Shown here: one piece after another, positions 3,332-55,330 of the stretch
Layout: each line of letters opens with the position of its first letter
Position numbering within the stretch: the stretch's first letter is position 1
Origin: Buxus sempervirens
Lineage: Eukaryota; Streptophyta; Magnoliopsida; Buxales; Buxaceae
Assembly (NCBI GenBank): GCA_947561395.2
Contig: OX387183.1
Coordinates: forward strand, 14,497,402 to 14,561,401
Length of the DNA stretch: 64,000 nt
Direction of reading: 5' to 3'
Notes under the pieces: generated by a model
The model's input: the letters and a program-made list of their open reading frames with translations, nothing else
Database searches by the model: none
What the model was told of the DNA's origin: nothing
Translations under genes and position numbers: made by a program

Positions 3332-3532
3332 GGCAAAGCCAAGGGTAATAAGGTCCCAAGGGTATGCCTAAAAGTTCTTCTAGATTACTCCAATTCTCCT
3401 TAAAGGCTTGAATTGGAGTAATTTAGCAAGTTTCGGAGCGTGAAATAGGGAGTTCAAGTCCCTGAGAGAGAGGTAATATGCGTAAATAAGGCTCAGAGAT
3501 CGAGCCATTTCGCAAATCCCCGAAACAACCAA

Positions 3533-10443: not shown

Positions 10444-10480
<37 letters not shown>

Positions 10481-15060: not shown

Positions 15061-16380
15061 ACCATCTTGATTGGCTTGTATTTTGCTTCCAATATGATAA
15101 TTGTATATGCCTTGGCTTGAAATTGTATGCATGGCTACAAAAAAGAGTGGCAAGGGGCTGGGACATTGTGAATGTTACCTCAAAATTCAAAATGCACTCG
15201 AGCACAATGAACACTTTGCACAGCCTACCCATTACCTATAGGAAGTTGAACCCCGAATGTGTGTAGCTTGACGCACCGAGGTCGTTACTTCGGAAAGCGA
15301 AAGTGAAAACATTTACCTTAGAATTTGAGTCAATTATGTGATGACAATGGGATCTGTGATTCGATTCTGTGCATCACTAGACTTAAGTTCTAAGTTGCCA
15401 ATTAAGCCAAAACCCAAAAACCATACGTTTGAAGGTGGAGAAACACGTTTTCAGCTAAAAGTACACAATTGCGTTTGGGGAATTGGGTGTAAATGTGGGA
15501 AGGCCATTTGCATGTTTTACAGGCCAAGGTATAATATGAATACCATATTGAAGGTAATACAAGGTGGCAAGGTAAAGCCATGTTCTTTTTATGTTCATGT
15601 AAATTAAAAGCCATGGTGTCCATATGCTTTGGATGAAATTTTCCCAAAAATATATATAGCCTAAGGTTGGTGTAACCTATAGGATGAGTTTCCAACTCAA
15701 TTTAATAGTCATCCTACCCAAAGTCCATGTAGGAGGCAACCAAGTGTACAAAATCCAAGAATTGGTGCATAGCTTTGGAGGGACAAGTACCCTCATGAAT
15801 TTGTGAAGTTTGCAAGTATAAGGTCAAGGCCCAATTCGGGGCAAGTTTTTAAGGCCAAGTCAAGGTGAACATCAAGTGGGAATGAAAATAACATAATCTG
15901 GTGAAAAAATGAGTCAAAAATGGCCATTTCGGCATTAACCGGCAACTCAGGTCGGTTAAGAATAATTTCATTCATATCTGGCATATATTATCGGTTACAA
16001 AGGCTTATGCGTGTATCCGATCATTGTTGCCGGATACAATAAGCCATAGCCTTATCCAACACTTCATGCCGGATACATACAGAAAATGTATAAATTGGTT
16101 TTTTTCAACCCGAATTTTCAGAATAAAATGCCTAAACACTGTGGATAATCCTTAGGCACCCCAAAGAGAATATAAAAATGTTGCAAAAAAATAAAAAAAA
16201 TAAAAACGAAAAAACAAAAAAAAATATTCTTTTAGGATTTAACCTAATTTTGAAACTCAAAGAGCAAGCTAAGGTGTCATATTTTTTTATATCAATTCAA
16301 TTCAAACATGTGTCAATCAAGCTTTTGAACTTGAAAACTGAGAAAATTCAGCAAATTTCAAAAAGAAAAAAAACCCCCCT
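15061..16380 (+). other. Tat element leader, non-coding
   Basis: Non-coding leader shared with the inverted element at 1-1475 (best match 15240-15330 against 740-880). It holds a palindrome array (15935-16076). No supportable ORF is present. Confidence 0.6.
15935..16076. repeat. 39-bp-period palindrome array, Tat leader
   Basis: Four 25-bp imperfect palindromes start at 15935, 15974, 16013 and 16052, exactly 39 bp apart. The first has arms TTAACCGGC / GTCGGTTAA, a compensated change from GTATCCGGC / GCCGGATAC. Spacers are 14 bp and not conserved. Confidence 0.85.
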
Positions 16381-17090: not shown

Positions 17091-17325
17091 AAAAAAAATA
17101 AACTCAAACTTGTGTTCACCTAGCCTACTTGTCTACATTTATAGGGGTGTGACTCAAGTTAAATGGAAGCTGACTTGTTGCTTTTTTTTTTCTTCACCAG
17201 GTACACTTACTTGCAATCATTGCTCCCGTGACCAGATCCAAAGCCAGAGCCATGAATACTGAAGAGAACCAAGCTCAAACCACCGTACCTGCTCAGGACT
17301 TTGCTCAGCTGTAGGAGCAAGTGGC

Positions 17326-20192: not shown

Positions 20193-20877
20193 GTGGCTGG
20201 TCTTGCCAAAATGCTGGGAGACTTACTGGCGGCTCAGGCCCAAAACCAAGTCTCTACTTCCCATCAAGCACCACCACCTCAGGCCTACATTCCGCTTCCG
20301 GCTCAACCCATGCCTGAGCCCATTTCTGAACCGGTCCCTGAACCTATTCTGATTAGGGAAAATACTGTGGAATCTGAGAAAGAAATTGAAAAATAAAAGG
20401 CTAGGGAGGAAATGGAAAAGAAACTTCTACACAAAATTGAGAGAATCCAGGAAGAACTTAAGGAGGTGAAGGAGGGAAACCGCTACGGAGGTACCACCTT
20501 TGATGATCTCTGCATGTACCCGGATGTATGCCTACTGGCCAAGTTCAAGTGCCCGGACTTCGACAAATATGATGGCAGGGGCTGCCCGATGAGCCACTTA
20601 AAACTATACTGCGGGGCCCTATGCCAGTTTGGTCGGGATGACGGCATACTAATCCAACTCTTTCAGAGGAGTTTGACAGGGTCAACCTTGAGGTGGTTTG
20701 CCACGGTGGACCACGGAAGGAGCAGAAGATGGAAGGACTTGGCGGACGCCTTCCTGGTACAATACAAGTTTAACTCGAAGATCGTGCCAGACCGGTACAA
20801 CATGATGAGGATGAGTAAGGGGAAAGATGAGTCTGTCAGGCAGTACGCCAAGAGGTGGAGAGAGGCCGCCTCCCAGG

Positions 20878-23253
20878 TGTAGACACCTGATTTTTGCACC
20901 CCTAAAATGGCAAAAAATGAAAAGTCAAACCCTGAGGGGGTTAAAAAATTGACTTTTTGATTCAAGATAATTTGGCCATCAAACTTTATATCATTGAAAA
21001 GAGCATTTCGACACGGTTCTAACGCAACTGAATTTGCTGGAATCGGAGTCCAGATGAAAAAGATATGAGCTGGTCAAACTTTTGGGGAGCGAAAAGTTGA
21101 CTTTTTGCTCAACCCAATTCAACTGCCAAATTTGATCCCAATGGATAGGTGATTCCGAGCCGGTTCCAACGACATTAAGTTTGCTGAAATCGAACACCGG
21201 ATGAAGAAGTTATGAGCAGTTGAAGCTTCAGAAAAACTGCCCATGTGGCAAAAAAGACAGCAAAAATGGAATAAACCAATAAAATAAATGTGTTTAATAA
21301 TATTTTAATAAAGAGAATCTCGTTTTTTAATAAAATAATCGAAAAATCGAATAAGAATCTTGCAAAAAACCAAATTGAATAAAGGTTTGAAATCCAAACA
21401 TTTTAAAAACGTGTTGGACCGTATTCTCATTACGGACGGGGCATGCCCGTATTTCAAATACGGGCAAGATTCCCGAAGAAAACACGCGTCACCGTACGGC
21501 GGGACACGCGTCCCGTACAGCTGATTCGCGAGATTTGCAAATGTGCGTTTTTCGCCCGTATTTGAATTACGGGCAAGGCACGCCAGTACTTCAAATACGG
21601 GCACGAAAATTTTGCCTATAAATAGAGAGGCCTCCCCCCCCTCATTTCAACAAGCCCTCTCTCCTGGCCATCTCCCCTACCCTCCTGAAGTTTGCCTCGA
21701 CCAAATGCTGCCCTCATACTGTCACTCTAGCATCCTAACTCTTCTTTTTCCTAAACTACCCCTAGGTTAGTTAAACCATGTCAATATCATGCAAAAATCC
21801 TCTCTGATCTAACTCTCAAACCCATCACCCAGCCAAACCCTTTTTCCAACAATTTTGAAATATTCGGGAGGACGCGGAAGCGCTGCCCAAATCTTTGGAG
21901 AACCACAAATCCAACAAAACAAACTAATTACATTGTAAGTATACTATTATCTCTAAATTGAATAAATTTTGCTTATTTCATTGTCTTCTTTACTCACTTT
22001 TTTTTTATCACAATACCACTAACTTGTTTGCTGTTTTGGATGCCATGAGAGTTTAGAATTAAAGTATTAACCTTTGTTGGAAATGAGGAAAAGAAAGTGT
22101 TTTTCTTGATTAAACTAATGGTCATCTCTAACCATTTAATGTGGAAGGATTAAGCCTTGCTTAAGGACACGTAATATTCCCTGTAAAACTCCCCTTTTCC
22201 ATGCTAAAAACGAATTGGAGATTATTCATGCAATGCAGTGTTTCTTCAAGAAACACTAAAAGAAAAGGAAGATGGTCATTTGGGCCAAATGAGGCAAATG
22301 AAGTCCCTGGAAGAACCTGCAATCTTTTCTGAAGCTACAAGAACATCTGAGAAAGCCACGGAACTGATCCCAGGAAGAGCCGGCACCAAATATGCAAAAC
22401 TGGAGGCGCCCATAAACTCAAAACGGTCCCGTCTGGACTGTGTTTACTTCACGGGCGAACCCAACCGGAATTGGTCCACGGGCAAGAGTGGACCATATAA
22501 CAAATACGGGCGATTGTAAAATAACCTGAAAAATGTAATTTTCCGGCCCGGTTGAACCTGATTAGACCTGAACCGGCCTGAACCATTCCCTTAAAAATTT
22601 TGGGCTATCTTTAGCCCATTTTTGGACCGTGGGCCTAGAAGGGCCCACCAAGACCCCCCTTGGGCCAACTTGAAGGCCCATATTTAGACCGGCCCATACC
22701 GGGCCCGTTTTCAACAAACGGGCTCCAGGCCAATTGACTCAGGCTAATGGGCCCATTCCAAGCCCACCAAGCCCAAACTAAAATTATAAATACATAAAAC
22801 TTAATAAAATAATCAAACGGGTTACCCAATAACCCAATTGGGCCTAAGGCCCAGCCATGGCAACCCACGAGTCTTCCAACGGGACCCGGGTCCGACCCAC
22901 TTCACTTAAATAAATAGAAAGATAAAATCAAATAAAAGGGACCCACACCTTCAGAGGGCCCCGCCAGACCTAATAAACAGCATGCTGGTCTAGGAAGGGT
23001 GAACTTGACTCAAAAACCAGGGAGACCCGAGGGACCCATCAAATCGACGGGGCGGACCGGGGTGTCTTTAGGACTTCCCCGGATCGTAACCGAGGACTTA
23101 GCTAGAACTCTGAAAAGCCGCAGACCAGACTTAGACCCGATTAGGGCAAAACCGTGTCTGCCTGCACCTCTCAGGCAGTGGCAACTCCGAATGTCCCGAG
23201 GCACGCATGAAAGGTGTGCCCGGTGTGCGATCTAGGATTTTTAGGTGCGCACA
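20878..23253 (+). mobile_element. Solo LTR (third Tat-type family), TSD CCAGG
   Basis: 2376 bp, ends TGTAGACACC...GGTGCGCACA, flanked by CCAGG at 20873-20877 and 23254-23258. It lies within gag, and excision restores the reading frame. TATA box TATAAATA at 21617-21624. The 3' part has GGCAACTCCGAATG, related to GGCGACTCCGAATT in the solo LTR at 33550-36795, so the two are distant relatives in opposite orientation. A GGCCCA-rich tract spans 22540-22900. Confidence 0.92.
21445..21602. repeat. Palindrome array (GCCCGTATTT type) before LTR TATA box
   Basis: 21-bp palindromes at 21445-21465 (perfect: GCCCGTATTT, C, AAATACGGGC), 21554-21574 and 21582-21602, plus degenerate CGCGT/GTACGGC copies between them. 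The array ends 14 bp upstream of the TATA box at 21617. Confidence 0.8.
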
Positions 23254-29939: not shown

Positions 29940-30607
29940 TGCCAGAATACCAACCTCTGAAGACCAACTTTCCAGATGAGGCAATTCTGTGTGCTAAAGA
30001 GGATGAAAGTGAGAGTTCTTGACAGATGTTCTTTGATGGGGCCGCCAACATGAACGGAAATGGAATAGGGGCAGTTTTGGTCAAGCCAGATGGGTCCCAC
30101 ATCCCAATCGCAGTGAAGCTAAGATTCCAGTGCACCAATAATATCGCAGAATACGAAGCATGTATAATTGGGTTGCAAGCCGCCATGGATCATGAAGTTG
30201 AGGAACTTGACGTATACGGGGATTCGAGTCTTATCATCTTCCAAACAACTGGTGAGTGGAAAACCAAGGATCACAAATTGATCCCCTATCACCAGTAGTT
30301 GGAAGAAATAAGCACAAACTTTACTCGAATTTCCTTCAACTATATGCCAAGGGCCAAGAATCAGTTCGCGGATACTCTAGCAACATTGGCTTCCATGGTC
30401 AGCATGCCAGAAGGGGTAGACATCAGACCACTGGAAATTGAGGTCAGGGACGAACCGGCTTACTGTCTCATTCTAGAGGGAGCACCTGAAGAAGAAGCAC
30501 CATGGTTTCAAGATATCAAAAATTTCTTGAACAATCGGAGTTTGCCAGAAATGCCACTTCTACTGAGAAGAGGACAATACAGAGATTGGCTGGTCAATTT
30601 CTGCTAA
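29940..30607 (+). pseudogene. Tat-type RNase H domain
   Basis: Starts as YQPLKTNFPDEAIL, then MFFDGAANMNGNGIG (first Asp), NIAEYEACIIGL (Glu), VYGDSSLIIFQ (Asp) and KNQFADTLATLASM (fourth Asp). All four carboxylates of the RNase H fold are kept, but in-frame stops (TGA near 30020, in place of a codon before MFFDG; TAG near 30296) break it. It ends with a shift into the integrase frame around 30560. This is the retrotransposon domain that degrades RNA in RNA/DNA hybrids. Confidence 0.9.
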
Positions 30608-31749
30608 ATGGTGGACACCTATATAAGAGATCACATAACGACATTCTGCTCAGGTGTGTTGCTAAGGCTGAGTTAGAAAGGTTAATCGAGACCGTACATG
30701 GAGGAGTTTGTGGACCCCATATGAATGGACACATGCTTGCAAAGAAGATCCTAAGGTTGGGGTATTACTGGTCAACAATGGAGCACGATTGCTGTATACA
30801 TGTCAGGAGGTGTCATCAATGTCAGATATATGCAGATAATAAGCATGCACCCCCAAGTGAGTTGCACAACATGACATCACCGTGGCCCTTCTCTATGTGG
30901 GGCATAGATGTCATTGGCATGATTTCCCCTAAGGTATCAAACGGGCACAGATTTATCCTGGTAGCGATTGATTATTTCACTAAGTGGATGGAAGCAACCT
31001 CATATGCAAACATCACAAGCAACCATGTTATTAAATTTTTTAAGCACAATATTATTTGTCGCTATGGACTGCCAAGTGCCATAGTATCAGACAACGCTTC
31101 AAATATTAAAAACAAAGACATGAAGAAAATGTGTGAGCAGTTTCAGATCACCCACCACAAGTCAGCTCCGTATAGGCTAAAGATGAATGGGGCAGTAGAA
31201 GCAGCAAACAAGAATATAAAGAAAATTATTCAGAAAATGGTAGTGAGTTACAAGGATTGGCATGAAATGGTGCCACTTGCTCTACATGCCTATAGAACCT
31301 CAATACGGACTTCAACTGGGGCAACCCCGTATTCACTGGTCTATGGAATGGAAGCAGTCTTGCCAGTGGAAGTAGAAATCCCATCACTCAGAGTGCTCAT
31401 GGAGACTGAATTGGAAGAAGCTGAATAGATACAGTCAAGAAGTGATTAACTCAACCTAATAGAAGAGAAACGATTGAAAGCACTTTATCATGGCCAGTTG
31501 TACCAAAGGAGAATGGCCCGGGCCTACAATAAGAAAGTGAGGCCCAGAACTTTCCAAGAAGGAAACTTAGTGCTAAAGAAAATCTTACCATTTTTGGAAG
31601 ATCCTCGTGGTAAGTTCAAGCCCAATTGGGAAGGTCCGTATGTTGTCAAGAAGGCCCTGTCTGGGGGTGCACTCATCTTGATAAAAATGGATGGGTCAGA
31701 TTTTCCTGAGCCAATTAACTCTGATGCAGTAAAAAGGTATTTTCCTTGA
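30560..31749 (+). pseudogene. Tat-type integrase
   Basis: Continues pol in a new frame. The HHCC zinc domain is visible (H in VHGGVCG, HMNGHM, CHQC). The core D,D,E residues sit in WGIDVIG, VSDNASN and NGAVEAAN. The C-terminus has the GPY-like NWEGPYVV; no chromodomain is seen, which fits Tat. Stops near 31426 and 31447 split off the C-terminal 91-codon piece (31474-31749). NGAVEAAN keeps the Glu, but SDNAS differs from the usual SDNGT/SDNGS. It would insert element cDNA into the genome; this copy is dead. Confidence 0.92.
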
Positions 31750-32425: not shown

Positions 32426-34592
32426 CTAGTCTCTGTCTCCTAGCCGCTCCTCAAGCTCTGGAGTCTGAACTGCCTGAGCTGCAATAACTCCAGAAGCCCC
32501 CTCTGTAGCGGGATCACTCAAGAAGGAAATGACCTCATCTGAAAGGGTCTGTCTAATCCGCATACTCCTAAAGTTGGCTAAAGCATCCTGATGCTTCTGC
32601 CGTATCATCCGAACCCCAAAGCGGCGGGCCTGCCTCTGCTCCTCAAGTTTCTTCTCCATAGCAAGACGGCGGGATACCTGCTCCGCAAGTTGCCTTTCCA
32701 TGTCAAGGCCCCATATCCTAAGCTCCTGGGCCTCTCGTACCCATATCTGCTGAAGTCGCTTGTGAGAAGCTCTCTCAGACTCCAGGATGTCCTCATAAGT
32801 AGGAGCCAAGACTGCAGGAGGATCTTCAGGTACTGGGGCCTGACTCTGTATCTGCTCCTTGATCCAGAAGAGATAGTCCTTCACATGGAACTCTGAGAAG
32901 ACAGGGCCCCACATAAAGCGAACATAGGACCACTCTCTCATCAACCAAGCATTCAGCTTCATGGTAGCTGGTGAAAGTGGCCCAAGGTGGTCCTCATATC
33001 CACTTGGGATTATAATCCCTTGGGTTGCTCTGAACTGACAAAGAACCCGCAAAGGAAGGTAAAGCACTGCGTGTCTCAAGCCAGCCAGAACCAAAAAGTT
33101 GTGGTCTCGGAAGCTGATCACAGTCTCTGCATTAGGCTGATAAGTACCAGACCACCTCACTTGATCATCCTGGAGCGTAGCCAAGAAAGCAAACCAGCCC
33201 TGCTTACCCCCTGGAATGTCAGGACACCCCCGGTTGCTTATCAAGATGGGAACTTTCAAGCTTGGGAAGAAGTGTCGATTGATCTCCTCAATCTGACTCA
33301 AGTGGTCAAGTAGCCAGAGCTATAAAGGAGGAGTGATATTTCATTATATTGTAAAAAGAAAGAAAAGCAAAAAAGAAAAAAGCAGAAAGAAAAAAACAAA
33401 AAAAAAGAAGGAAAAGAATAGAAAAAATTACCTACAGGATAGGGGCACATGATAGGAAGCGCTTCGACTTCCTGTGATAGCAGTCAGTCAAAGCCTGATA
33501 CATCTCCGCCAAAATCATAAGAGCCAATCTCTCCCGCTCCCTAACCTAGTGTGCGCGCGTCAGAAACGCGGCACGGGAAAATTCGGAGTCGCCACCGCCT
33601 GATGGGGTGCAGGCAGACACCTGGGTGCCTAAGTTTGTCTACTTTGGGCTTTTGGTCTGCGGCTTGAGATTCTAAGTTTGGTTCTCGGTTGCGGTCTGGG
33701 GAAGTCTGTAGACACCCCAGTCCACCCCGTCGGATGACGGGTCCCGTGGGTTCCCTGATTTGAGTCAGCTTACTTTGATTTCACCCGATTCCTAATCCAG
33801 CATGCCATTTGTTTAAGTCTGGTGGGACCACCTGGGTGGTGTGGGTCCCTTTAATGGATTTTATCTTGTTTTACTTAAGTTGTCTGAGTCTGATTGGGTG
33901 GGCCCCATTGGAAGGGACACGGTGTCATTGGCGAGCTTGGGTGAGCCCATGTGCCCCTGGTGGGCCTCTGTCTAACCTAGGAGGCCCTGTGGGCTTAGGT
34001 TAAGTGAATTGATTTTACATTAAGGTTCAGGTTTGAAGCTTAAGTGGTTTTCATGCAAATAGTGGGCCGGTGTTGGTTTGCGGGCCCCTGGGTGGGCCCC
34101 CATGATGGTTGCCGAATTGTTTTTAATTTATCTCATTTAGATTCGCCCAGGTGGGTTGGACATTGGGCTTGGGGCCCATAGTCCAATTCTTAGGTTTGAA
34201 AGCCCCAGTTAATTGAAGTTAGGGTTTTGAACCCTTAGCTTTTTTTTTTTGGGCTTCGACGGGCCCGATAGGCCCTAACCCTGGGTCTCGGCCAAACCAC
34301 GCAATTCATTCATTGATCCCCAAAACAAGGTTTGGGTGGGCCGCATTGGGTTTGGCCCACCTGATTCGAATGGTTCATTTCACTTAGGTTGCTTAATTGC
34401 ATGCCTTTAGATTTATCAAGCTTGTTGGGCCCCGTTGGAAGGCCCACTAGTGTTCCCAAGTTGGACCATGGCCCAAGTCCCAAGTTGGGTTTCCGAGTGG
34501 CCCGAAAACCCTACTGGATCATCCGGTTCAATGGAAAGAATAGGAAAATTGCACAAGACCAAACGAAATGGAAAAATTAGATTTTCGGCAAT

Positions 34593-34695
34593 GTAGCCGG
34601 CCTGAGATGCCGGCTACACACAGGGACTAGTGTATCCGGCCTGAGTTGCCGGATACACGCAGGCCATAGGTGATCCGGCCTGAGTTGCCGGATCA
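34593..34695. repeat. 39-bp-period palindrome array, solo LTR copy 1
   Basis: Three 25-bp units at 34593, 34632 and 34671, exactly 39 bp apart. Arms are GTAGCCGGC/GCCGGCTAC, GTATCCGGC/GCCGGATAC and TGATCCGGC/GCCGGATCA: base changes on one arm are matched on the other. Confidence 0.88.
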
Positions 34696-35977
34696 CACTA
34701 AAATGGCCTTTTTCCGGATTTTGGCAACTGGGGTGACCTCCAGGGGCTTCCTAGAGGTTTCTGCAGGTCATGTGGGCCCCTGGATGGGCCCACATAGGTT
34801 CAGGTATGGGGAAAGGCCTCATTTGGCCTATTTTGGGGATTTTCCAGCAAGGTAAAGGGGGCCTGGGACCACTGCTGTTCCCTACAGCTTCTTGCATGGC
34901 TCGGCATGGGGGAGTTGCAAGGGATGGGGGGAGCACACTTGCATGGTCCATGGCAGCAAGTGAGGAGTGGGGTGAGGGATCATGCCTACATGCATAACCG
35001 CAAAAAAACAAGTGACTAAACCCAAGGCAATACACCTAATCACTAGCAGGCATGTCAAAAAATACAGCAATGGAAGGGCTGGAGTGGGTGGAGCACGGTT
35101 GCATGCTTATGGCTAAAAAAACAAGTGGTCGATGCATGGTCATGCTACGTGGACAGTAACCAGCATGTTTTTTAGAAACAAAAAGGAACAGCAAATTCAA
35201 AGGGGAAGAAAGAAGATGCATTCCCTCTTGATAACAAAATAGCAAACAATCACATGATCTTAAAGCAAAGGAAGAAAAGACCGGAGCAGGTTGCTACCAG
35301 CAAACTAATATCAACAACTATCATAGAGAAAAGAAGACGAGGAGACAGAGGAAATGGGAAAGGAATGAGGGATGGTATAGGGGTACATTAGATTGTAATC
35401 TAAGAAGGAACATGCTCCTTCAAAAAAAAGCTTCAGGTGAGTCCCTGGACAGCAGCCCAAGGACACTAGACATGGCATCATATTAGACTTACATGCTTCC
35501 ATAAGAGGCCTACGTGGACTCCCCACTCGTGGTGGCTTCATGCCATGAAAAGAACACCAAATACATACATAAAACATGCTAAAACCAGGCCATGCCAAGC
35601 AAGAAGACAAGAAGAAGAAAATACAACAGAAAAATCTAAATTTAATATATGATGAACACAATATGGTGAGGAGTCTTACCTGAGGGTTTACAAGCCCTAG
35701 AGAGGTAGGCTAGGATCTCCTTGAAGCTGGGACAATGGCTGGAGCAGCACCCTCCCACAGCAACAGCAAACTCTCCTTGTTGGATTGTAAGCCAAGAGGA
35801 AGAAAGAAGAAGAAGGGTGGGGGTACTTGAGGTGGTGTCTTGAGGTTATGGAAGGCCAAGGGAGCTGAAGAAAGGAGGATTCGGGTGGAGGAAAGTGGGA
35901 GACAGAAGTTGAAAACAAGCCAAAAAAGCCAGCCCCCGGAAATGAGCTGCTGTTTGGTATTTACAGACAAACTTAAT

Positions 35978-36223
35978 GTATCCGGCAACTCAGGCCGGAT
36001 ACACTAAGGCCTCTCCTTATCCGGCCTTCATGGCCGGATACACTAAGGCTCATTTGTATCCGGCCTTCAATGCCGGATACAAAACATAATCATTTCGAAT
36101 TTTAATGCCGCCGCGAATTTGTCGGGCGATCGGCACGAATCTCTCGCGAAAATCTTCTTGTATCCGGCCTTCAAGTCCGGTCATGAAGGGGAGCTAGTGT
36201 ATCCGGCATTAAATGCCGGATAC
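35978..36223. repeat. 39-bp-period palindrome array, solo LTR copy 2
   Basis: Units at 35978, 36017 and 36056 (39-bp steps), then 36160 and 36199 (39-bp step again). Centres include AACTCAG, CTTCATG and ATTAAAT. The unit at 36160 has a damaged right arm. The gap 36081-36159 holds degenerate GC-rich sequence. Confidence 0.88.
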
Positions 36224-37509
36224 AAATCGAAAAATTACTGGATTTGCCCCTCGACTTGACCGATTTGACACTTTTGGATATCTACGGATTGGTCCCTACG
36301 AAATTTTGCTTTAAACCCTGGGATATTTTGCATTTTTGGATATTTACGGATTGCCCCTCGAGATATTTTCTTGCGCCATTCGCTACGTGCGCGGCTTTTT
36401 GCCACGTGTGTAGCTTTCGGTTTTTCTGCTCGGAAACTTTGACGGCTCATATTTCCTTCATTCGGACTCTGATTTGAGCAAACTCAGTTGCGTTGGACTC
36501 GTATCGGAGCCCTCTATCCAATGATGTAGAGCTAAGCATCTGGCACGGGGTTCAAAAAAAGTCAACTTTCGGCCACCCTCAAGTTTGACCGGCCCACAGA
36601 GCCTTCATCCGGACTCCGATTCCAGCAAACTCAGTTGCGTTGGTCTCGTGTCGGGATTCTCTATCCATTAAGATAAAGCAAGATGGCCAAATTTCATTTG
36701 ATCGAGAGGTCAACTTTCGACCCCTTTGGGTTTGACTTTTTAGCAGGGTTTTGTATTTTTGGTTTTTTTGGGAGCGCAAAAATGAGGTGCTTACACCTAG
36801 CATACAACTAAGATTAGGGCCAAGTCCACCTCATCATCATCCCTTGGGAAAAGCAGTTGGTTGACCACTATCAGGGTCAAGGCATTGAACTTAGCTTCTT
36901 TGTTCTCCCCCCCCCCCCCCCTCAAGAGCTTCTCAGTCAGAAAAGTTTTAGACAGAGTCAAAAAGGTATCAGAATCCCCTAAATCCTTCCTCCCTATGCC
37001 TAGGAAAGTAGAAGCCTCCTTCTTGTAGCTGGGCCTGAGGGGTTGGTTCACTACCTTCTCATCAAATCTCAAGCCCAAGATGGTTTCCACCTCTTCAATG
37101 GTTGGGGTCATCTCATGGTCCCTAAAACGGAAAAGGTTTAGGTCGGGTACCCAATGGCCAATCATGGCTTCAATAATCTCCCACTTGAAGGGAACCTTCG
37201 GGATAAGCAGAATGTGGCCTAGATGGTTGGAATCCCATCTCCTCTCCTCATCCAGGGTCATAGAATTGACCCATCTATTATAAAAGGAGTCCACAGGATT
37301 GTACCTAGTAAGATTAGGTGGTTTTGATCTAAAAGGCTGTTTTGCAGGGGAGGCCATGTGGACAGACAACAAGGGGGCAGAGGATGATTCGGAATCCATT
37401 GGAGGCAATGGGAGCAAGCTAAGAATCAATGGGAGGATGAAAAAGGTGAAAAAGGGGGTTCCTAAACTCAAAAAGTCGTAAAAAATGAGCAAATCCCGAG
37501 GCTGGTTGC

Positions 37510-37516
37510 ATTTATA
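37510..37516 (-). promoter_or_regulatory. TATA box of antisense DUF7745 gene
   Basis: TATAAAT on the minus strand within GCTATAAATGC, about 110 bp upstream of the ATG at 37399. The first unit of the palindrome array starts 15 bp further upstream (37531). Inferred core promoter of the antisense gene. Confidence 0.55.
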
Positions 37517-37530
37517 GCTTTTTTTTTAAT

Positions 37531-37672
37531 GTAACCGGCATATCAGATCGGATACAAAAGATTTTGCTCATATCCGATGAACAATGCCGGATACAAAAGG
37601 TTCTAAACGTATCCGGCATAATATACCGGATACAAAGAGAACTCAGTGTATCCGGTCTGATATGCCGGATAC
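37531..37672. repeat. 39-bp-period palindrome array upstream of DUF7745 gene
   Basis: Four 25-bp units at 37531, 37570, 37609 and 37648, all 39 bp apart. Their centres (CATATCA, TGAACAA, CATAATA, TCTGATA) follow the same order as the four units of the 3' LTR array (42733-42871), while the 14-bp spacers differ. Confidence 0.9.
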
Positions 37673-37890: not shown

Positions 37891-40618
37891 TCACCCTCCA
37901 CGTCCTCTGCCTCGTGCCCCTCTGCGACCTCTACCTCGAGGTAATCGGCACCTAGAGTATGCCAGAATACACTCGGCAGCATGGCGAGGAAGCCGACCCA
38001 CAACCGACTGGATCTGATACTCCAAACAATACTCCGAAAGGTCTGGAGGTGGGTCAGGAGCAGAATCTGGGGAAGAGGCCTCGGGCTCAGCAGGTACGGG
38101 CTCAATGGGACCCTCAACCACAGCAGTCTCTGCTCCAGCAGATCCAGAAGGCCCAGCAGCATTAGAATAGGGATTAGGAACAGAGGTATCTGGGTCAACA
38201 GAAAGGGTCAAAAGCAGAAGTATCAAGATAAACCAAAGAGGGAAAATTAAAGAAAAACTTACCGGGAATATCTACAGTGGGAACCGAGGGATCCGGCTCA
38301 ACCGGATCAGCAGCAAGGAGGTACTCCAGCTCAAGAACCGCCACTGGAGATGAAGGACCCATGGGGTCCACAGGAGCAACCACCGGGTCAGCAGCTGGGG
38401 CATCACCAAGATCAGCAACCCGAGCTGGAGATGGATCAGGAACAGAGAAATCGGGCTCGTAGGCAGCATCCTGATCTGGGACTGGACCCTGAAAAAGCAA
38501 AAAGGTTTATATCAGAACAATAGAAACATGGAAATAAAAGAGACGAAAATATAAAGAAACTAGATACCTGTCAAGCCTGGAGCTCAGCAACCAGAGCCTC
38601 CAGCTCTCTGATCCGAGCATCCCTTTGGGGCACGACCGCATCATGCTCTACGATCATATCCTCGATCGCGGCCCGCTGGCTCAGGAACTGGTCCCCCACA
38701 GCCTTCAGCTCGTGTACCTGCCAATAAGAACAGAAGTAGAGTCAGAAATACAGGATTGAAAGATGAACAATGAAAATCATGAAACTCACCGTATCATCGT
38801 GGATCCGGACATAGATCCCGCCAATCTCGGTCACCCCGGCACGAGTGGGTCGATCCATCATGCACCCAATGGATACTCTCTGGATCCACTCATCGTAATC
38901 CCCAGCTACTGTGAGCCCCTCCGCATCCTGAAAATGATCAAACTGATCAACATCGAAACCCGACAGGAGCGTGTCTGGACCCACAGGAGGAGGGGGAACG
39001 GGGATACGAAGTGTGCCTGTGTGCTGATAGTACAGGCGCTCTCCCAGATACATCACCCTACCAAGCCTCCCAAGGAAACACTGATAGGGCTAACGTCGGA
39101 GATCTCTATCAAAAGCATCCTGTACTATCATCTCACGGGCCACTCCAACATCCACGTCATCAAAGCGTGCCAGGATGAGCTGCAAAGAAGAAAAATGGTC
39201 AGATACAATCAAGGTGCAGGAAAAGAAACAAAAGGGAAAAGGCAAAGAATTTACATCGGATCGTCGGGCGCGGCCCAAGTGAACCCGAGCAGTGCGAGGT
39301 TGACTCCTATCAGCATCTCGGACCTAGGTCGACCAGCGCAAAGCAACAGGGAACTCCACAACGCCAGGCACTGGAGATGGGCGGAAGAAAGTCATGTAGG
39401 TATACATAAACACCTAGCAAAAGGAAAATCAGTCAGAGATAAAGAAAATAAAGCTTAAGGAATAAAACAAGACAGATGAAGTTCATACCTGCAGAATCTA
39501 CCAAAAGAACCGGCAGATAACTCCATCCCCTCTCGGAGCAGCTCATCCTGGTCCTGTATATGAGCCGACCCCATGCTAGCTGGCGGGTCTGACAAAGATC
39601 TCTCAAAGCATCCAAGAAAAGAGGACTGACACTGGTCGTATCCTCCTGGAAGAAGCAGCTCCCGAGCATCAGCAGGAAAACGTGCCGGAAGATAGGTACA
39701 AAGGCTGCATCCTCCACAGTGATGGTCACGTGTCTCCCCTCATAATGACGAACCAAGCTCTCCCGCAGCCAACTGATAGAGATGCGACCACTCCGCCCGT
39801 CCCAAGCAGCTGGAGGCAAGTCCGGATATCCCAAGAGAAGGCTGATATCCTCCGTTTAAGGCCGATCCAGAACGATAGTCCGCCCCATCAAAGGAATACC
39901 CGTAATCATCACAAAATCGGAGGGGCGGATCCCCAGCTCCACGTCCGGCAGATGGAATGACTGCTTCTCCGGAAAATATCTCTCCATCATGGCGAAAATG
40001 AGTGGACGATCGGCTCGGAACGACGGGATGCTGAGAAAATAATCCAAGTGGCACCTCCCAAACTCGCACCTGAGTGCCAGGGAAAGCGACTGCGCCAACT
40101 CACTAAATCTCCCCCAACTGCCTCGCAGATTGGAAGAAGAATATGGAAGAGGCACATCGGCCCGGATGCACGTGGAGGGGTGGCTATCCAAGCCACTAAG
40201 GAGCTCTGTATCATGAATAAACGCTCTCAGCTCCACAGAGACCCCTAGCAAAGCTACAGCAGCACCATCCTGAGCTACACCTCTGGCTCTACCACGGCCT
40301 CGACCTCTGCCACGGCCTCCCTCACCCTCAAGGGCCTGATCCTGAACTCTGCCTCAGCCTCTGCCTCGACCTCGAGCAAGAGCAACCACGGGCTAAAATT
40401 CAAAAAGGGAATGTGAAGGTTTGTGTAGGAAGAATAGAAGGAGGGAAAAGAAGAATTTGAAACCCTACCTCAGTAGAACCCTCTCCAGAGCTCTCTCTGG
40501 AATCATCTAATGGCTCCGACAAAGTAGCACTAGAACTCGCCTCTACCCGAGCCCGTGAAGTGGAAGGTTGATCAGCAGGGTCAGCCTCCTCTCGAACCCG
40601 AGAGCGACTCCTAGCCAT
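37891..40618 (-). pseudogene. Antisense plant mobile domain (PMD/MAIN-like) gene
   Basis: Multi-exon gene on the minus strand, starting at ATG 40618 (MARSRSRVREEAD). Probable exons: 40618-~40470; ~40393-39489 (Arg/Gly-rich start, then the PMD core with MMERYFPEKQSFHLPDVELGIRP and SDFVMITGIPLMG); 39413-39255; 39179-38790; ~38719-38573 (coiled coil); then Pro/Asp-rich exons ending in a basic RGRGRGG tail at 37891. GT/AG junctions are visible at 39489/39413, 39255/39179 and 38790. Stops: a TGA in the RG-rich start near 40353, TAA at 39856-39858, one after LRWST, and TAG at 39090-39092. PMD proteins occur both as host MAIN/MAIL factors and inside transposons; here the gene lies inside the Tat element. 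Confidence 0.8.
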
Positions 40619-41992: not shown

Positions 41993-42056
41993 GTATCCGA
42001 CATGTTATGTCGGATACACAGGAGACTCTTCTTATTCGACGAGCTATGTCGGATAC
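41993..42056. repeat. 39-bp-period palindrome pair upstream of PMD gene
   Basis: Two 25-bp units at 41993 and 42032, 39 bp apart. The first is GTATCCGAC/GTCGGATAC with a compensated G-to-A change; the second is worn (TTATTCGAC). They lie about 1.4 kb upstream of the PMD ATG. Confidence 0.8.
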
Positions 42057-42616: not shown

Positions 42617-42630
42617 CAAAGAGGGGCAGT
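42617..42630 (+). other. Polypurine tract of Tat element 3
   Basis: CAAAGAGGGGCAGT directly before the 3' LTR start TGTAGACACC. Primer site for plus-strand DNA synthesis; confirms orientation and the LTR boundary. Confidence 0.7.
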
Positions 42631-42732
42631 TGTAGACACCCCAAATTGCACAGTAAAAATGATCAATAATCAGCAAAAATCAATATCTCCTTGGAAGCCA
42701 GCACAAAATTTGAGAAAATAAGTTTTTTACTT

Positions 42733-42871
42733 GTATCCGACAACTCAGGTCGGATACAAGAGTTCTTCGTATCCGATGGAACATGCCGGATACAAGCAGG
42801 CTTTAGTGTATCCGGCATTATATGCCGGATACATTAAGGCACTCATGTATCCGACCTGATATGTCGGATAC
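42733..42871. repeat. 39-bp-period palindrome array, 3' LTR
   Basis: Four 25-bp units at 42733, 42769, 42808 and 42847 (steps 36, 39, 39), with arms GTATCCG(A/G) and (T/C)CGGATAC. The array ends about 165 bp upstream of the LTR TATA box. Confidence 0.9.
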
Positions 42872-43037
42872 ATAAGTTTTGCTCAAAATTAGGGTTTTCC
42901 GAGAGATTTCACTTTTTACCATCATGTCCTTCATTAAATGAGGGGAAATCTCGGAAATGGCCTTAGGGTTAAGGTTGGTGGGCACTAGACATTATTTTGT
43001 ATCTACCATCTCACCAACCCTAACCCTAGCCTTTGCC

Positions 43038-43045
43038 TATAAATA
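43038..43045 (+). promoter_or_regulatory. TATA box of 3' LTR
   Basis: TATAAATA in the context GCCTATAAATAGGAGG, about 408 bp into the LTR, the same context as in the other Tat-type LTRs here. Likely core promoter. Confidence 0.7.
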
Positions 43046-44962
43046 GGAGGCTCCTCCTTAAGCAAATGGCCAACAATTCTTGCCAAGAACCTCTACCAAG
43101 AAGAATCCCAAGTGAAGAGGGGAACCGCTGCGGAAGTGCGTCCAGAACCCAGGTAAGCCTCAAACCTATCTTTAATTTTCTGTTTTTGCATTTCTAGATC
43201 TAGATCTCTTCTTCTACCTTTCTGTAGAATAAGGCCTTGATGTGTGTATGAAAACCCTTCCCCGGCTCAAAGTATCTCAAGACTCCCCTTAGCCGTAAAA
43301 CGTGAAGGCGGGATCTAGGAGAAACGAGACTGGGGATTGACCATAGTACTAGAACCTCATTTGAATAAAGCCTTTTGAATCTTTGAAGCCCGTTTCATAT
43401 TCAAAGTACCCCAGAATTATCTTGAAGAACCGTGTTTAACGGGGAGAGAGAACTAAGGGAAACGATAATGGAACGGAATCCTAGGTTGCTTTTAGAACCA
43501 TATTTTGATGAATATGAATGCATGCTATGTTGTTATATTGTTCTTGAATGATTTTGACACTTGCACATACATAGCACATGTTTTGGCGGGATAGGCTCAT
43601 ATTTCAGATTTATTGCATTTATTGTGATAAATCTGAGATAAATAGCCCCAAGCAATTCTGGAATGTTTTTAAATGATTTCCAAAAGATTTTGATTCATCT
43701 TGCACGAATTACACACACTTTATCACAGTTTTGAATTGGTTTTGTTCAAAAAGGCTTAACTTGACAGCAACTATACCCCGACTTCGGACACTCATAACTT
43801 CATCGTCCGAATGAATTTTGGAGTGATTCTAGAACCATGGGAAAGGTGAGGCTGTCTACTTTATGCCTACCAAATTTCATTAATTTCTATCAAGCGGATT
43901 TTTGACACCTCTCTGTCGAAGTTGATTGGTCAGTTCAGGTTTAAATACGGAACTTGTCACTTCGACTGAGCGCCATGTGTTCGTTTTAAATCCGATTTGA
44001 GTATTTTTGTTTCTGGGCACTCCTTTATGAGTCTATTTTCAAATCCAGTTGGTTTCATAATTTTTTGACTCCATTTGTGTTGTTGGTAACAGATTTACTC
44101 AGAACTGCTCATCAGCACTTTTTTGGGTAAATCTGTGATCTTCAGGGCCTGTTCGGGAGACCACCCAAGGCACATCCGAATGAATTTTTGTATGAGGCTA
44201 GTTTCATTTGAAAGATGGCCATACAGACTTCAATCATACCAAATTTCATGAATTTATATGGAGCCGATTTTTCTAGGTGATTTTCCAAACTTGCCTACTT
44301 GCAACTTTTAATTATCTCCAGCAGCAACTTTAAAGGAGGCATAGCTCCTAGGATTTCAACCGGATTCAATCGAAATTTTGCATGAATCTCTTATTTACCA
44401 TAATCTTTCAAATGGATTTGGTTTTATTCAATTTTAAATTGGATTTGAATGATTTCAAGACAAATGGTTCTTGCTTTTACCGAATTTTCCGAATTTAACT
44501 CAACTTGGTTTTGTGCAACTTTTGCTTCGGATTTCCACCTTTGAATGATATTCCAGAAATGATATTGACATAAGAGAGGATCTGGAATCCATTTGGATCT
44601 TCATGTGAAAAGATCATACATTTGTTCAAATCCTTTTTCAAGGTTTTTTTAATGATTTTTAGCAAGCTTTCTCTTTCTTTTGCATGAACAAACACTTGGC
44701 AACCACCTTGTGTGGGTGAATGGGGGTGCCTAACACCTTCCCCCGTTCATAATCTAATCCCCTTACCCATCTCTGGATTTGATTTTCAAGTAGAGTTATT
44801 TTTACTCTAGAATTTACTTTTTAGCTCTTTTTGTTTATTTTTAAACTTCTGGTGTCCATTCACACCCTAAACTTGAATGGTGGCAACTCTCCCACTTTTT
44901 ACGTTGAGCCCCGTGTGTTGACGGAGGGTGAATCATCCCGGTGATTTTTCCCATGTGTCACA

Positions 44963-47509: not shown

Positions 47510-48877
47510 TCATAGTGAACATTTATTGAAAACGATGCCGTTAGCACTAGGATTGGGCGAAGCAAAGGCAAGGAACTCCTTATCACGTTCCAACATCGCC
47601 ATGGTTTGTTCATTTAAGGTCAACCATACTTCTATTCCATCTCCATCTCTGGTGTCCATCAGAGTAACCATATTACTTTCCGTACCCGCCATTGCTGCAT
47701 CGAAATAACTCACCCATGCAGGCTTTCCCCACCCAAAATCAGCTTCATATAAAGGCATCCTACACAAACTGGTGAACCAACAGGAATCTGCTTCAGAAAA
47801 GAGCTGCTCTTGCTTCTCTATTTCAACCAATTTTGAGATCCACCCATCGCCCTGAAATTGATCTCTTAAATATTCACCGTCAATCTTTCTAATAGCTTCT
47901 CTCATCTGAAGCACCAAGTCAACTAACTCGCTCTCCCTCTCATTCCTCAATGACACATTCACGTCCCAGACCATATTTCCAATAGTGTTTCCCGGTACGG
48001 GTGGAACCATCCTCCCTCGCATGTTAACCATATATCTCGCCACGAAAGGAAGCTTTGTAGAACCTGGTTTTGCTCTAGAGGCAGCCATGACACGTTGCCA
48101 GATGAGCGTCGACACCACTTCAACCCTGGTGGGGTGTTTCAAAGTACTTGAAGACATGTTGTTGCTCACCTTGGCCTTTAGCGCAGTTATGCTTGAGCCG
48201 GTAAACACAAACCTTGCTTTCCTTGCAGTGATCAACTCCACTTTGGATGACTCAAAGATTGCATTTTGGGGCCACAATACTGATAAATCCCTTGATGGGA
48301 AGATAGAATCTTGTAAGAAGATGGGTGACACAGCTTCACTAGAACCGCGAGCGATGGAGGCCCAATCGTTAACAAACTTCACCATCGATGATGCATCAAT
48401 AATCGTGTGTAGAAAGCACATACCGATTGCTAGTCCTCCGCAATCAAAGCTGTTCACTTGAATGGATAACTGAACTACGCGATGATCTAGTTCAGTAGCC
48501 CCAAAATCAGGTGGAAGGAAACGATTCAGTACCTCAATTTCAAGTTTCTCTAAAAGCTTCGAGAGGTCACAGTTGACATGGGCTTCTATATAATCAACTC
48601 CCTCGTCGTTACAGTCGATACTGGAGAAGCCATCTTTGAATCTTCCTGCAAATGGGTAGTATCGGGACAAGGTCTCTGATAAGGATTTCTTGAGCTGATG
48701 TGATCTTTTGGCAGTTGGGATCCTTGATTGGTTGCTTACAGAAGGGTAAAAGAAAACGTGAGGACCATACGAGATGGGAGTGATCTGGTCAAGAAGGGAC
48801 AGTTTAAAGGTTCTAAGGTGAGGGGGAGTCGGGGAAGATGGTTTGACAGCTTCTTTTGAGATGATTTCAACCTTCAT
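47510..48877 (-). CDS. BAHD acyltransferase (vinorine synthase-like), intact
   Basis: 455-aa cytosolic BAHD-family enzyme, single exon. BAHD proteins move an acyl group from acyl-CoA to a hydroxyl or amine of a plant specialised metabolite; the acceptor cannot be told from sequence. HTIID (HxxxD catalytic motif, residues 157-161) and DFGWG (residues 380-384) are both intact. Length is normal for the family. The start MKVEIISKEAV at 48877 is chosen over an upstream in-frame ATG (48904) because the nine extra residues are Lys/Arg-rich and unlike family N-termini. The end is LAFASPNPS... plus a short tail. It is closest to the pseudogene at 9155-10620, same strand; some 37 kb of retrotransposons separate them. 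Most similar known groups are vinorine synthase and stemmadenine acetyltransferase types, by motif only. Confidence 0.93.
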   Translation of the reverse strand: MKVEIISKEAVKPSSPTPPHLRTFKLSLLDQITPISYGPHVFFYPSVSNQSRIPTAKRSHQLKKSLSETLSRYYPFAGRFKDGFSSIDCNDEGVDYIEAHVNCDLSKLLEKLEIEVLNRFLPPDFGATELDHRVVQLSIQVNSFDCGGLAIGMCFLHTIIDASSMVKFVNDWASIARGSSEAVSPIFLQDSIFPSRDLSVLWPQNAIFESSKVELITARKARFVFTGSSITALKAKVSNNMSSSTLKHPTRVEVVSTLIWQRVMAASRAKPGSTKLPFVARYMVNMRGRMVPPVPGNTIGNMVWDVNVSLRNERESELVDLVLQMREAIRKIDGEYLRDQFQGDGWISKLVEIEKQEQLFSEADSCWFTSLCRMPLYEADFGWGKPAWVSYFDAAMAGTESNMVTLMDTRDGDGIEVWLTLNEQTMAMLERDKEFLAFASPNPSANGIVFNKCSL

Positions 48878-49601
48878 CTTCTTCTTTCGTTTCTTTCTTT
48901 TCAAACGTTAACTCTCTCTCTCTCTGGTTCAGGCAAACGCAACGTTCTGCTTTTTTTTCCTTTTTTTCTTTTGGGTGAAGCAATGTTCTGCTTATAATGT
49001 TAGGGAATAGGGAAGGCAAATTCAGGCGTACCCAATGGTGAGTGGAAAAATTGGTTTTTAGTGATTTTTTCAATATAATTAAGATTCGGTCGACCAATTC
49101 TCAAAAATTAAGAAATAGTGACACTCTTGTCAAATAATTATGATTCAGTATCATTTTACTATCATAAAAAATTTCTTTCAAAAACACCCTCAAAAAGACT
49201 TACAAACCTCACTTCTACCTCACTTATACCTAAATGAGTGAAAAGGTTTTCAAACTCTTTTGAGGGTATTGTTGGAAAAAGTTCTTGAGAACAGTAAAAT
49301 AAAATGTCAATTATATGAAAAATATTATTAATTTTTAGTTTTCGAGATTTAATCGACTGAATCCGAATTATGTTGAGAAATTATCACTAAAAACCAATTT
49401 CTCCGAAAAATAATTCACTTTTTCAGAGCAGGAGTGAGAAAGAACACTGCCACATTATTTTTATTTTTTATTTTTTGTCAGAGAAATGGCAGTTCAAAGC
49501 ATCCGCAGGAGTGAGAAAAAACACTGCCACGTTTATTTTTGTTTTTTCTGTCGGAGACAGGGCAGTCGCAAATGGTAGATTCTTACGAGTCGATTTCCTC
49601 T
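48878..49601. other. Intergenic, BAHD upstream region
   Basis: No gene. A (CT)n tract (48908-48925) and AT-rich DNA. The phrase AGAGAAATGGCAG...AAAACACTGCCAC is a small local duplication (about 49436 and 49511; GGAGTGAGAAA(G/A)AACACTGCCAC). The left breakpoint of the inverted duplication is at 49602. Confidence 0.4.
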
Positions 49602-51458
49602 CAGATGACTTTCTATGCATCCTCAATCTGCGCCCCCGCCGTGAACCCGTGTTGGATGGGCGCCGCGTGTCCACCAAATTTCAAACGCCAAAAATTTGTT
49701 TCCACCAAAACGTGCCAAGCTCGTGGGACCGGGGGAACGGACGAAAGCTCGCCCGTTAACGGCGTTTCATCCCGGTCTCTCTCTCTCTCTCTCGTCTTTT
49801 TGGCTTCCCTCCAAAACGAAAAAATCAGATGTAAACCGAGTTTTGGCTTCGTTTTCATTGAACAAAAATCAACCGGCTGCGTCAAGGAGAACCCTGCTTC
49901 CTTCCTCTTCATTTGTCTGTCTCAAACCTGCTTCCTTCCTCTTCCTCTTCGTTGGCGTGAGTTTTTCAAGTTAAACGGCCTCCTCTGTTTTTCCAGTTGA
50001 AGGGTAAGTTTCTCTCATTCTTTGTCTCTCTCAGTGTCGTCGCAGTCGACAATGGCGGTCGGGTATTTCTCTCTTTCCTTGCCTACTCTCTCTGTAGTTT
50101 TTGTTGGATGAACATGCCGTCGTGTTAATTTTACAGTAAGAACAAGAGGATTTCGAAGGGAAAGAAGGGAGGAAAGAAGAAAACGTGAGTATGAAACCCT
50201 AGATGCTATACTCGAAATATCTCATGCTCTGTGATTTCTAAATTATTTTCGCGTTTGTGTTTTCGTTTTAGAGTTGATCCTTTTGCCAAGAAGGATTGGT
50301 ACGATATCAAGGCTCCGTCGATCTTCAACGTTCGGAATGTCGAGAAGACCTTGGTTACGAGAACACAGGGAACTAAGGTGTGTACTTTTCTTATTGTCAT
50401 TTTTTCCGTATTTGATCTGTTTTTCATTGCTTGTTATTTGGAATTTGTTTTTTTGCTTTTTTCCCATGGTAGCGCCTTGTTTAAGATCAGATCGATTAGA
50501 AACCAGAAACCTGTAGATTGCTTCTGAAGGTCTTAAACACCGAGTGTTTGAGATTTACCTTGCTGACCTTCAAAATGATGAGGATCAGTCTTACAGAAAG
50601 ATCCGTCCGAGGGCAGAGGATGTACAAGGGAAGAATGTGCTCACTAACTTCTGGGTGGGGTAACATTAGTATTTTTTTTTTCCTTCAATTCATTTTACTC
50701 ATTTTTATTTTAAATTAGCTTTGATTCATACTGATAAAATTTTTTTATTCATATCTCCTTTGTTTGAATAATCCAGGGAATGAATTTCACAACAGACAAA
50801 CTGAGGTCTCTGGTACATAAATGGCAAACATTGATTGAGGCTCATGTAGATGTGAAGACAACAGACAACTACGGTTTAAGATTGTTCTGTATTGGATTTA
50901 CCAAAAGGCGCCCAAACCAGGTTAAGCGAACCTGTTATGCCCAAACCAGCCAGATACGGCAGGTAGACTTTACATTTACACAACCTTTGGTTACTGAAAT
51001 ACGGCATTTTATGTTCAAAGCAACTAAGTTATGGAATGAGCTAGTGAAGCATAGGTTTATATATTACAGTCTCTTCTTTGTACATTCACATGCATTTTTA
51101 ATGTGTTTATCATGCTTTGGGCTCTTTGTTCTCGGATTCGCTGCAAGATGAGAGAAATCATGATAAACCAAGCAGCATCCTGTGATCTGAAGGAGTTGGT
51201 GCAGAAGGCAACCTCAAGTGTCTATCCTTCGCAGAATGTTTTCATTCGAAAGGTCAAGATATTGAAAGCTCCGAAGTTTGATCTTGGCAAATTAATGGAG
51301 GTATATATTTCAAGCACTCTTGAGCTCCATTCTGGTTTTTTCCCACTTTCTAAGTAATTCAAAGCAAGCTTATTCATAAAGATGTATCAGATGCATTGAA
51401 CTGGTTGTGATATTAGTGTGTCAAATTTGTTTTGAATGGATTTGTGCTATTACATCAA
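49602..51458 (+). repeat. Inverted duplication, left arm (RPS3a copy A)
   Basis: 1857-bp arm, nearly identical to the reverse complement of 53478-55330. From about 49800 to 51458 the alignment is gap-free (paired positions always sum to 104936); a few bases of indel lie in the (CT)n tract and near 49735. Breakpoints are sharp: homology starts at CAGATGACTTTC and ends at TATTACATCAA. Confidence 0.95.
50052..51300 (+). pseudogene. RPS3A: 40S ribosomal protein eS1 (RPS3a), copy A, truncated
   Basis: eS1 is a structural protein of the small ribosomal subunit, normally about 262 aa in plants. Exons: 50052-50062, 50137-50184, 50272-50377, 50517-50654, 50777-50962, 51136-51300, with good GT/AG borders except one. 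Reads MAVGKNKRISKGKKGGKKKTVDP in pieces, then [30 protein letters not shown] and [13 protein letters not shown]. Defects: the acceptor before exon 6 is GG (CTCGG|ATT), the conserved FIPE...IEK segment (12 codons) is deleted after ELVQK, and the final exon (VHGDYSEDVGVK...) is missing because the duplication ends in the preceding intron. There are unusual changes at conserved sites (RCKM for RRKM, RKIRP for RKIRL). No frameshift or stop occurs within exons. Confidence 0.9.
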
Positions 51459-54884: not shown

Positions 54885-55330
54885 TGTCGACTGCGACGAC
54901 ACTGAGAGAGACAAAGAATGAGAGAAACTTACCCTTCAACTGGAAAAACAGAGGAGGCCGTTTAACTTGAAAAACTCACGCCAACGAAGAGGAAGAGGAA
55001 GGAAGCAGGTTTGAGACAGACGAATGAAGAGGAAGGAAACAGGGTTCTCCTTGACGCAGCCGGTTGATTTTTGTTCAATGAAAACGAAGCCAAAACTCGG
55101 TTTACATCTGATTTTTCGTTTTGGAGGGAAGCCAAAAAGACGAGAGAGAGAGAGAGACCGGGGTGAAACGCCGTTAACGGGCGAGTTTTCGTCCGTCCCC
55201 CGGTCCCACAAGCTTCGCACGTTTTGGTGGAAACAAATTTCTGGCGTTTGAAATTTGGTGGACACGCGGCGCCCATCCAACACGGGTTCACGGCGGGGGC
55301 GCAGATTGAGGATGCATAGAAAGTCATCTG
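53478..55330 (-). repeat. Inverted duplication, right arm (RPS3a copy B)
   Basis: 1853-bp partner of 49602-51458. On its 3' side the gene continues uninterrupted into the intron and last exon (to 53014), so this arm is probably the original and the left arm the copy. Confidence 0.95.

Follow-up and report, generated by a model that had tools for sequence, protein, structure and literature searches.

Phased palindrome arrays at fixed places in Ogre/Tat-like Ty3/gypsy retrotransposons of Buxus sempervirens, probably tandem sites for a dimeric DNA-binding protein

Arrays of a 25-bp palindrome repeated in steps of 39 bp occur in retrotransposons of Buxus sempervirens; they are real and abundant, and they look functional. 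We consider it probable that they are tandem sites for a dimeric DNA-binding protein, serving as upstream promoter elements of a large Ogre/Tat-like Ty3/gypsy family. The analysis started from one window (the whole stretch of 64,000 nucleotides under study) and was extended to related copies in the assembly. An earlier, sequence-only reading of the window had proposed either selection on hairpin or dimer binding, or a copying mechanism that renews palindromes. Dimer binding fits best, because the half-site core is nearly invariant, the spacing is kept and the distance to the TATA box is near-fixed; the hairpin gained no positive support as the selected feature, and copying is disfavoured.

Each palindrome consists of two half-sites TGTATCCGG(C/T), placed head to head with 7 bp between them. 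All 22 palindrome starts given by the sequence-only reading are present in the window at the same coordinates, and its account of the period is correct: the 15 steps within arrays all measure 39 bp except that from 42733 to 42769, which measures 36 bp. A scan allowing up to 5 mismatches in 18 arm bases returned 23 palindromes, the known 22 and a lone weak one at 33477, against one match each in a shuffled and a reversed window. The assembly searched comprises 676.5 Mb in 247 contigs. Across it, the palindrome with up to 3 mismatches occurs at 55,629 places versus 26 for the reversed pattern, and exact neighbour pairs CCGGATAC-N14-GTATCCGG (14-bp spacer only) number 11,447 versus 0 in the control. 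In an even sample of a single contig, arrays were present in 3 of 20 evenly spaced 10-kb stretches. A satellite is ruled out by the size of the window arrays, which hold only two to four units each, and a stand-alone mobile palindrome by the matching places that arrays occupy in LTR elements. The arrays at 37531-37672, 42733-42871 and 35978-36080 are also second-order inverted repeats, in which the first unit pairs with the last so that each makes one long hairpin.

In the window, Ty3/gypsy elements lie nested in one another and have the features of LTR retrotransposons: TG...CA ends, 5-bp target duplications, a PBS-like site and a polypurine tract (Table 1). The PBS-like site sits after the LTR in copy L016 and is so called by its sequence position, tRNA match aside; this copy shows the order same-type LTR, PBS-like sequence, leader, gag. 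Matches to gag and integrase domains indicate a gypsy-type element whose reading frames are broken, and no RT domain was found in the frames scanned. For the additional RNase H that Tat elements carry between RH and integrase, the window offers a weak RVT_3 fragment just ahead of integrase, below cut-off. Integrase is the last of the + strand domains and an antisense gene follows, an order that we take to be of the Ty3/gypsy kind. Two LTRs, N1 and N2, are nested in the host element; N1 was considered as a DNA transposon, which its ends and 5-bp duplication rule out in favour of a solo LTR. A third segment, at about 17326-20191, is missing at the matching place in L016 and looks like another solo LTR.

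Table 1. Parts of the host element and palindrome arrays in the window
Feature	Positions	Strand	Remarks
Array G, four palindromes	15935..16076	+	Leader between 5' LTR and gag (order as in L016)
TATA box TATAAAT	16089..16095	+	12 bp past array G in the window; none at the matching place in L016
gag fragment, host element	20412..20882	+	PF03732 (Retrotrans_gag), E 7.3e-7; interrupted by solo LTR N2
Nested solo LTR N2	20878-23253	+	5-bp duplication CCAGG; TG...CA ends; empty site in other copies
RNase-H-like fragment (RVT_3)	30299-30604	+	Directly upstream of integrase; weak, E 0.0016, below cut-off
Integrase, host element	30502..31428	+	Integrase_H2C2 and rve matches
Nested solo LTR N1, TGTAAGCACC...CGCACA	33550..36795	-	5-bp duplication CCTAG; empty site in L022
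Array A, three palindromes	34593..34695	-	Distal part of N1 LTR; no adjoining TATA box
Array B, three palindromes	35978..36080	-	Inside N1 LTR, upstream of N1-type LTR TATA box
Array C, two palindromes	36160..36223	-	Inside N1 LTR, 79 bp upstream of array B in LTR orientation
Antisense DUF7745/PMD open frame	36797..37492; MDSESS-start ATG at 37399	-	PF24924, E 3.5e-13, above cut-off
TATA box (TATAAA) of antisense gene	37511..37516	-	14 bp past last palindrome in the window
Array D, four 25-bp palindromes, 39-bp steps	37531..37672	-	Directly upstream of antisense PMD/DUF7745 promoter
Second antisense frame, weak plant-mobile-domain match	39859..40353	-	PF10536, E 5.4e-5, under the curated cut-off; lies past array E when read in antisense direction
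Array E, two palindromes	41993..42056	-	About 570 bp before 3' LTR; before second antisense frame; followed in antisense direction by TACATAAG in the window, where other copies may have TATAAA or TATAAG
Probable polypurine tract before 3' LTR	42618..42629	+	From sequence
3' LTR, TGTAGACACC...TCACA	42631..44962	+	Same LTR type as the 5' LTR in L016, there followed by PBS-like sequence
Array F, four palindromes, steps 36, 39, 39	42733..42871	+	102 bp inside LTR start; no adjoining TATA box

Besides its DUF7745 match, the antisense frame behind array D matches PF10536 (PMD) at E 2.3e-6, below the curated cut-off. Between the window and copy L022 (one pair, 197 codons) dN is 0.054, dS 0.78 and dN/dS about 0.07, values on which the gene looks to be under purifying selection. 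None of the 521 candidates from a protein search with this frame reached E 0.001; a sequence search of PDB gave no relative up to E 1, and the papers that related terms turned up do not mention DUF7745. TRP28 (PF04195), the antisense mark of Retand, was absent from the 20 frames scanned. We call the elements Ogre/Tat-like because, according to the part of PMC6317226 used here, 57% of Ogre elements carry a PMD, a likeness that stops short of proof of Ogre membership.

Other repeats and genes of the window are listed here for completeness. In the leader, after array G and its TATA box, a 75-bp unit is repeated in tandem about nine times (16398-17094, 93% match). Segments 49602-51458 and 53478-55330 form a 1.86-kb inverted duplication about 2 kb apart, with 99.3% identity the most alike among the long repeat pairs listed. 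Two transferase-family genes (PF02458, BAHD-type), at 9267-10613 and 47510-48904 (- strand), are 83.5% alike in DNA; the former is split into two frames and the latter is one open frame.

The arrays occupy fixed places in the element, and counterparts are found in L016 (F and G type), L022 (D, E, F) and L025 (A, B, C). Array D was followed in the largest set, comprising the window and 80 of the 149 other matches listed (taken from the top, some skipped), from a source search in which 150 of 5,498 candidates were scored. The copies are close relatives of the window, at 86-91% protein identity, hence kin rather than independent. Four recognised units are present in 77 of the 81, three in two, two in one and none in one; 215 of 236 steps are 39 bp and 17 are 38 bp. 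TATAAA starts at +12 from the array in 77 of the 80 array-bearing copies, at +13 in one and at +14 in the window, and is absent from one.

The same distance is seen genome-wide. CCGGATAC-N5..19-TATAAA occurs at 3,335 places versus 88 in the control, and CCGGATAC-N20..34-TATAAA at 57 versus 168. Among the first 100 N5-19 modules listed (45 distinct sequences), 95 have 11 or 12 bp to TATAAA; by type, 13 are antisense, 58 are ATTAAGTT, one is from the leader and 28 are other. The ATTAAGTT type is the one that stands before the N1-type LTR TATA box in L003 and L025, where array B is followed by TATAAATA at +12 and +11, respectively; the window has TGTAAATA at that place. Array E is followed in the antisense direction, 8-9 bp on, by TATAAA or TATAAG in seven of 11 readable E arrays, and neither is at that place in the other four. 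No TATA box adjoins arrays A and F or the L016 leader array.

Sequence constraint was measured on 77 D copies, leaving out the four of 81 without four recognised units; the columns used are those filled in 60% or more of the copies. Spacers are the most diverse class (mean pairwise diversity 0.301), followed by loops (0.246), the upstream flank (0.179), arms (0.115) and the downstream TATA-leader (0.068). Distinct gap intervals number four in 43 spacer columns, 120 in 322 upstream columns (a count inflated because the upstream flank is rich in T-runs) and nine in 90 downstream columns, so that per column the downstream leader about equals the spacers. There are none in arms or loops save for a whole extra unit in L088. 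Spacer sequence, then, drifts faster than the neighbouring column classes while spacer length changes little. The fifth palindrome unit in array D of L088, missed by the scan, illustrates a way in which arrays may lengthen; its 40 inserted columns are outside the diversity and gap counts.

Pooled over 616 half-sites, TATCCG is conserved at 0.96 or more at each base and the next G at 0.87, and the core TATCCGG hardly varies. At base 9 of the half-sites, T makes up 0.72 and C 0.23. The CpG is kept in 571 of 609 half-site instances versus 63 of 72 and 170 of 181 outside, a difference so small that CpG retention does not separate the array from background.

The arrangement suggests a dimeric activator that would bind two to four phased sites, in 39-bp steps, beside TBP. 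Promoter-proximal arrays place their last palindrome about 11-12 bp before the TATA box. Array D puts the module in front of the antisense PMD/DUF7745 gene and array B, in other copies, in front of a sense promoter belonging to one LTR type. In the window, array G places it in the leader that precedes gag, and array E, in other copies and at 8-9 bp, ahead of the second antisense PMD frame. A single regulator might set sense and antisense transcription of the element together. From the position and spacing of the sites, their distance to the TATA box, the conservation of the half-sites and the agreement of base 9 between arrays we infer protein binding, the dimeric state of the protein and activation. 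Among plant factors, some MYB-related and GARP proteins recognise sites of the GGATA type.

Base 9 varies between copies and agrees between arrays. In array D, 20 copies have T in all eight half-sites, 21 have T with one A, and others have mostly C. Arrays E and F lie 4-5 kb from D, and their state at this base follows that of D (Spearman 0.79, n = 15; of 20 elements fetched, four had no such arrays in the part fetched and L070 had the other LTR type). The C fraction at base 9 of arrays E and F together is 0.62 in seven elements with a C-rich D and 0.12 in seven without C. Some copies (L016 at 1168-1309, L022) carry arrays with a third half-site type, GGA/TCC at base 9.

When GGC- and GGT-type copies were contrasted, leaving out four mixed copies of 77, columns differing in frequency by more than 0.6 were five of eight at base 9, one of eight at base 8, none of eight at base 1 and none of 48 in the core; elsewhere they were seven of 28 in loops, five of 42 in spacers, seven of 207 upstream and two of 80 downstream. 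This contrast is partly circular, because the groups are defined by base 9. With groups taken from the flanks alone (22 and 55 copies) the mean difference is again largest at base 9 (0.365) and smallest in the core (0.044), and none of the eight base-9 columns differs by more than 0.6.

The base-9 types follow descent in part and are not single clades: they need six label changes on the flank tree, versus a mean of 23.5 and a minimum of 18 in 500 shuffles. These six changes make recombination of arrays between lineages likely. Gene conversion of whole units is ruled out as the source of the pattern, since units 2, 3 and 4 retain their own loops; unit 1 is an exception: its loop in GGT-type copies either reverses that of the other type or duplicates the loop of unit 4. 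Linked inheritance can hold together arrays that share a type, but something must first have carried one base into some 16 half-sites whose loops differ. The simplest candidate is a shared trans-acting reader; mutation bias alone would need to leave the CpG of that half-site untouched.

That reader could be coded by the element itself: its antisense PMD/DUF7745 protein would bind the arrays in the leader, in the LTR and at the array-bearing promoter from which it would be expressed. We put this forward as a speculation that is rather doubtful as things stand, the more so as the two base-9 groups are not single clades on the flank tree. If true, Ty3/gypsy elements would have a self-coded regulatory or anti-silencing loop, and the GGC/GGT difference would be the trace of a changed PMD/DUF7745 specificity, other copies in the nucleus keeping the other half-site.

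The alternative that keeps most weight, itself unlikely, is that the arrays matter as hairpins: transcripts running through them would form fold-backs that enter small-RNA silencing, or the folded structure would serve the element RNA. Four arrays do fold far better than shuffles as RNA (z -11.1, -11.7, -12.6 and -4.9; none of 200 shuffles each as good), but any palindrome folds well. In LTRs of maize Sireviruses, palindrome motifs are hotspots to which small RNAs map, according to the part of PMC5311732 used here. Over the nine pairs, wobble-type states outnumber A-C/C-A (G-T/T-G 184 versus 107), about half of the G-T/T-G coming from pair 1, but at pair 8 compatible and incompatible states are similar (26 G-T, 19 A-C). 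Pairing frequently fails at pairs 1 and 9. In unit 3, 74 of 77 copies have a non-Watson-Crick pair 1/25 (G-T in 69), and the share of copies without pairing at pair 9 is 23-56%, depending on the unit. Nor is the fold of unit 1 on unit 4 conserved, the unit-1 loop being opposite in 40 of 43 GGT-type D copies. Folding also leaves unexplained why arrays sit 11-12 bp before TATA boxes.

An inherited tandem duplication, without function itself and riding along with the promoter, is a poorer account, and we think it very improbable. Tandem repeats are common in non-coding regions of Retand and other non-chromovirus elements, as far as the parts of PMC11963269 and PMC6317226 used here go; all copies share descent, and unit number is still changeable, as in L088. 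Against this, the spacers have diverged beyond the flanks while the half-site core is near-invariant, and the same core is kept before TATA boxes despite unlike linkers.

The sequence-only reading had described arms that covary, with compensated changes. Symmetric variants are real; the covariation proves weaker than it had been put once tested on a tree. TTAACC/GGTTAA (15935) and TGATCC/GGATCA (34671) recur in corresponding arrays of L016 and L025, and at least two symmetric variants are therefore inherited unit variants, not fresh compensations. The tree was built from short flanks and ignores recombination, which would likewise shift whole arrays together; on it, same-branch co-changes within palindromes come to 12.4 (10.4 compensated) versus 9.0 expected from branch lengths, and to 13.8 between left and right arms of different palindromes. 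There is thus no clear overall excess within single palindromes. Pair 8 shows a mild one, with 3.4 compensated same-branch changes versus 1.1-1.6 and a co-change fraction of 0.34 within and 0.03 between palindromes; for base 9 the fraction is 0.45 between and 0.28 within. As base 9 changes across palindromes and the variants are inherited, the compensated changes first noticed consist largely of shared changes in the half-site together with unit variants passed down by descent. Renewal of palindromes by template switching or arm-to-arm correction, with no sequence-specific reader, could draw on the symmetric variants, the excess at pair 8 and the unit-1 loop found in both orientations, but it has the least credence of all, being disfavoured because the mismatches at pair 1/25 of unit 3 and at pair 9 persist and compensation shows no overall excess; nor does it account for the TATA distance.

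If the arrays are dimer sites, an unexplained repeat becomes a testable promoter code of sense and antisense promoters in a retrotransposon family of thousands of copies. A phased dimer-type site beside TATA boxes would be a direct handle on who switches the elements on, and the half-site agreement between distant arrays makes coevolution of transposon and regulator testable. Control of Tat/Ogre antisense genes is apparently little studied, and the genes are described as of unknown function in the parts of PMC7264820 and PMC11963269 used here.

Searches on palindromes, tandem repeats and antisense promoters in plant LTR elements gave no earlier description of the array among the matches listed, subscription literature being mostly outside their reach. 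Literal motif strings led to no retrotransposon study, judged by title and start of abstract among the matches listed. As the sequence-only reading had said, no named element of the same geometry was found, but the arrays sit in a known kind of element and are similar to Sirevirus RM boxes.

For Tat, Ogre and Retand elements, an antisense gene between pol and the 3' LTR and a long non-coding region with tandem repeats are described (PMC11963269, PMC7264820 and PMC6317226, each in part), and the host element shares the antisense gene and the repeat-bearing non-coding region. The same portions of these sources place a promoter upstream of the antisense gene23 of maize Grande; palindromic arrays at antisense-ORF promoters, present here, are not described in them.

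Nearest in logic is the VANDAL/VANC system, where, in the part of PMC5735166 used here, a short motif is arrayed in transposon non-coding regions, as in our elements. Its motif variants (C-type, T-type) differ by subgroup and the units diverge together, which resembles the base-9 types, and its authors propose that the motif coevolves with the element-encoded protein. VANDALs are DNA transposons with motifs in the same orientation and binding shown, according to the same excerpts, whereas here the motifs are palindromes in retrotransposons, to which a protein would bind.

The nearest system overall is the Sirevirus RM boxes (PMC2829016, in part), palindromic CCG/CGG boxes present, like our arrays, in many copies per LTR retrotransposon. 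They stand before the TATA box in the LTR and before the extra gene (ENV), a comparable placement, and the Citrus RM AATCCGGCTWRCCGGATT has ATCCGG arms in common with the arrays. The arrays have a nearly fixed 39-bp phase and, where promoter-proximal, a nearly fixed TATA distance, for which the portion of PMC2829016 used here gives no counterpart, and unlike the RM boxes described there they are also carried by an antisense gene and a leader. Sirevirus is Ty1/copia and the host element is Ty3/gypsy, so the arrays work like RM boxes and are not members of them; they are probably a new form of a known type of retrotransposon promoter element.
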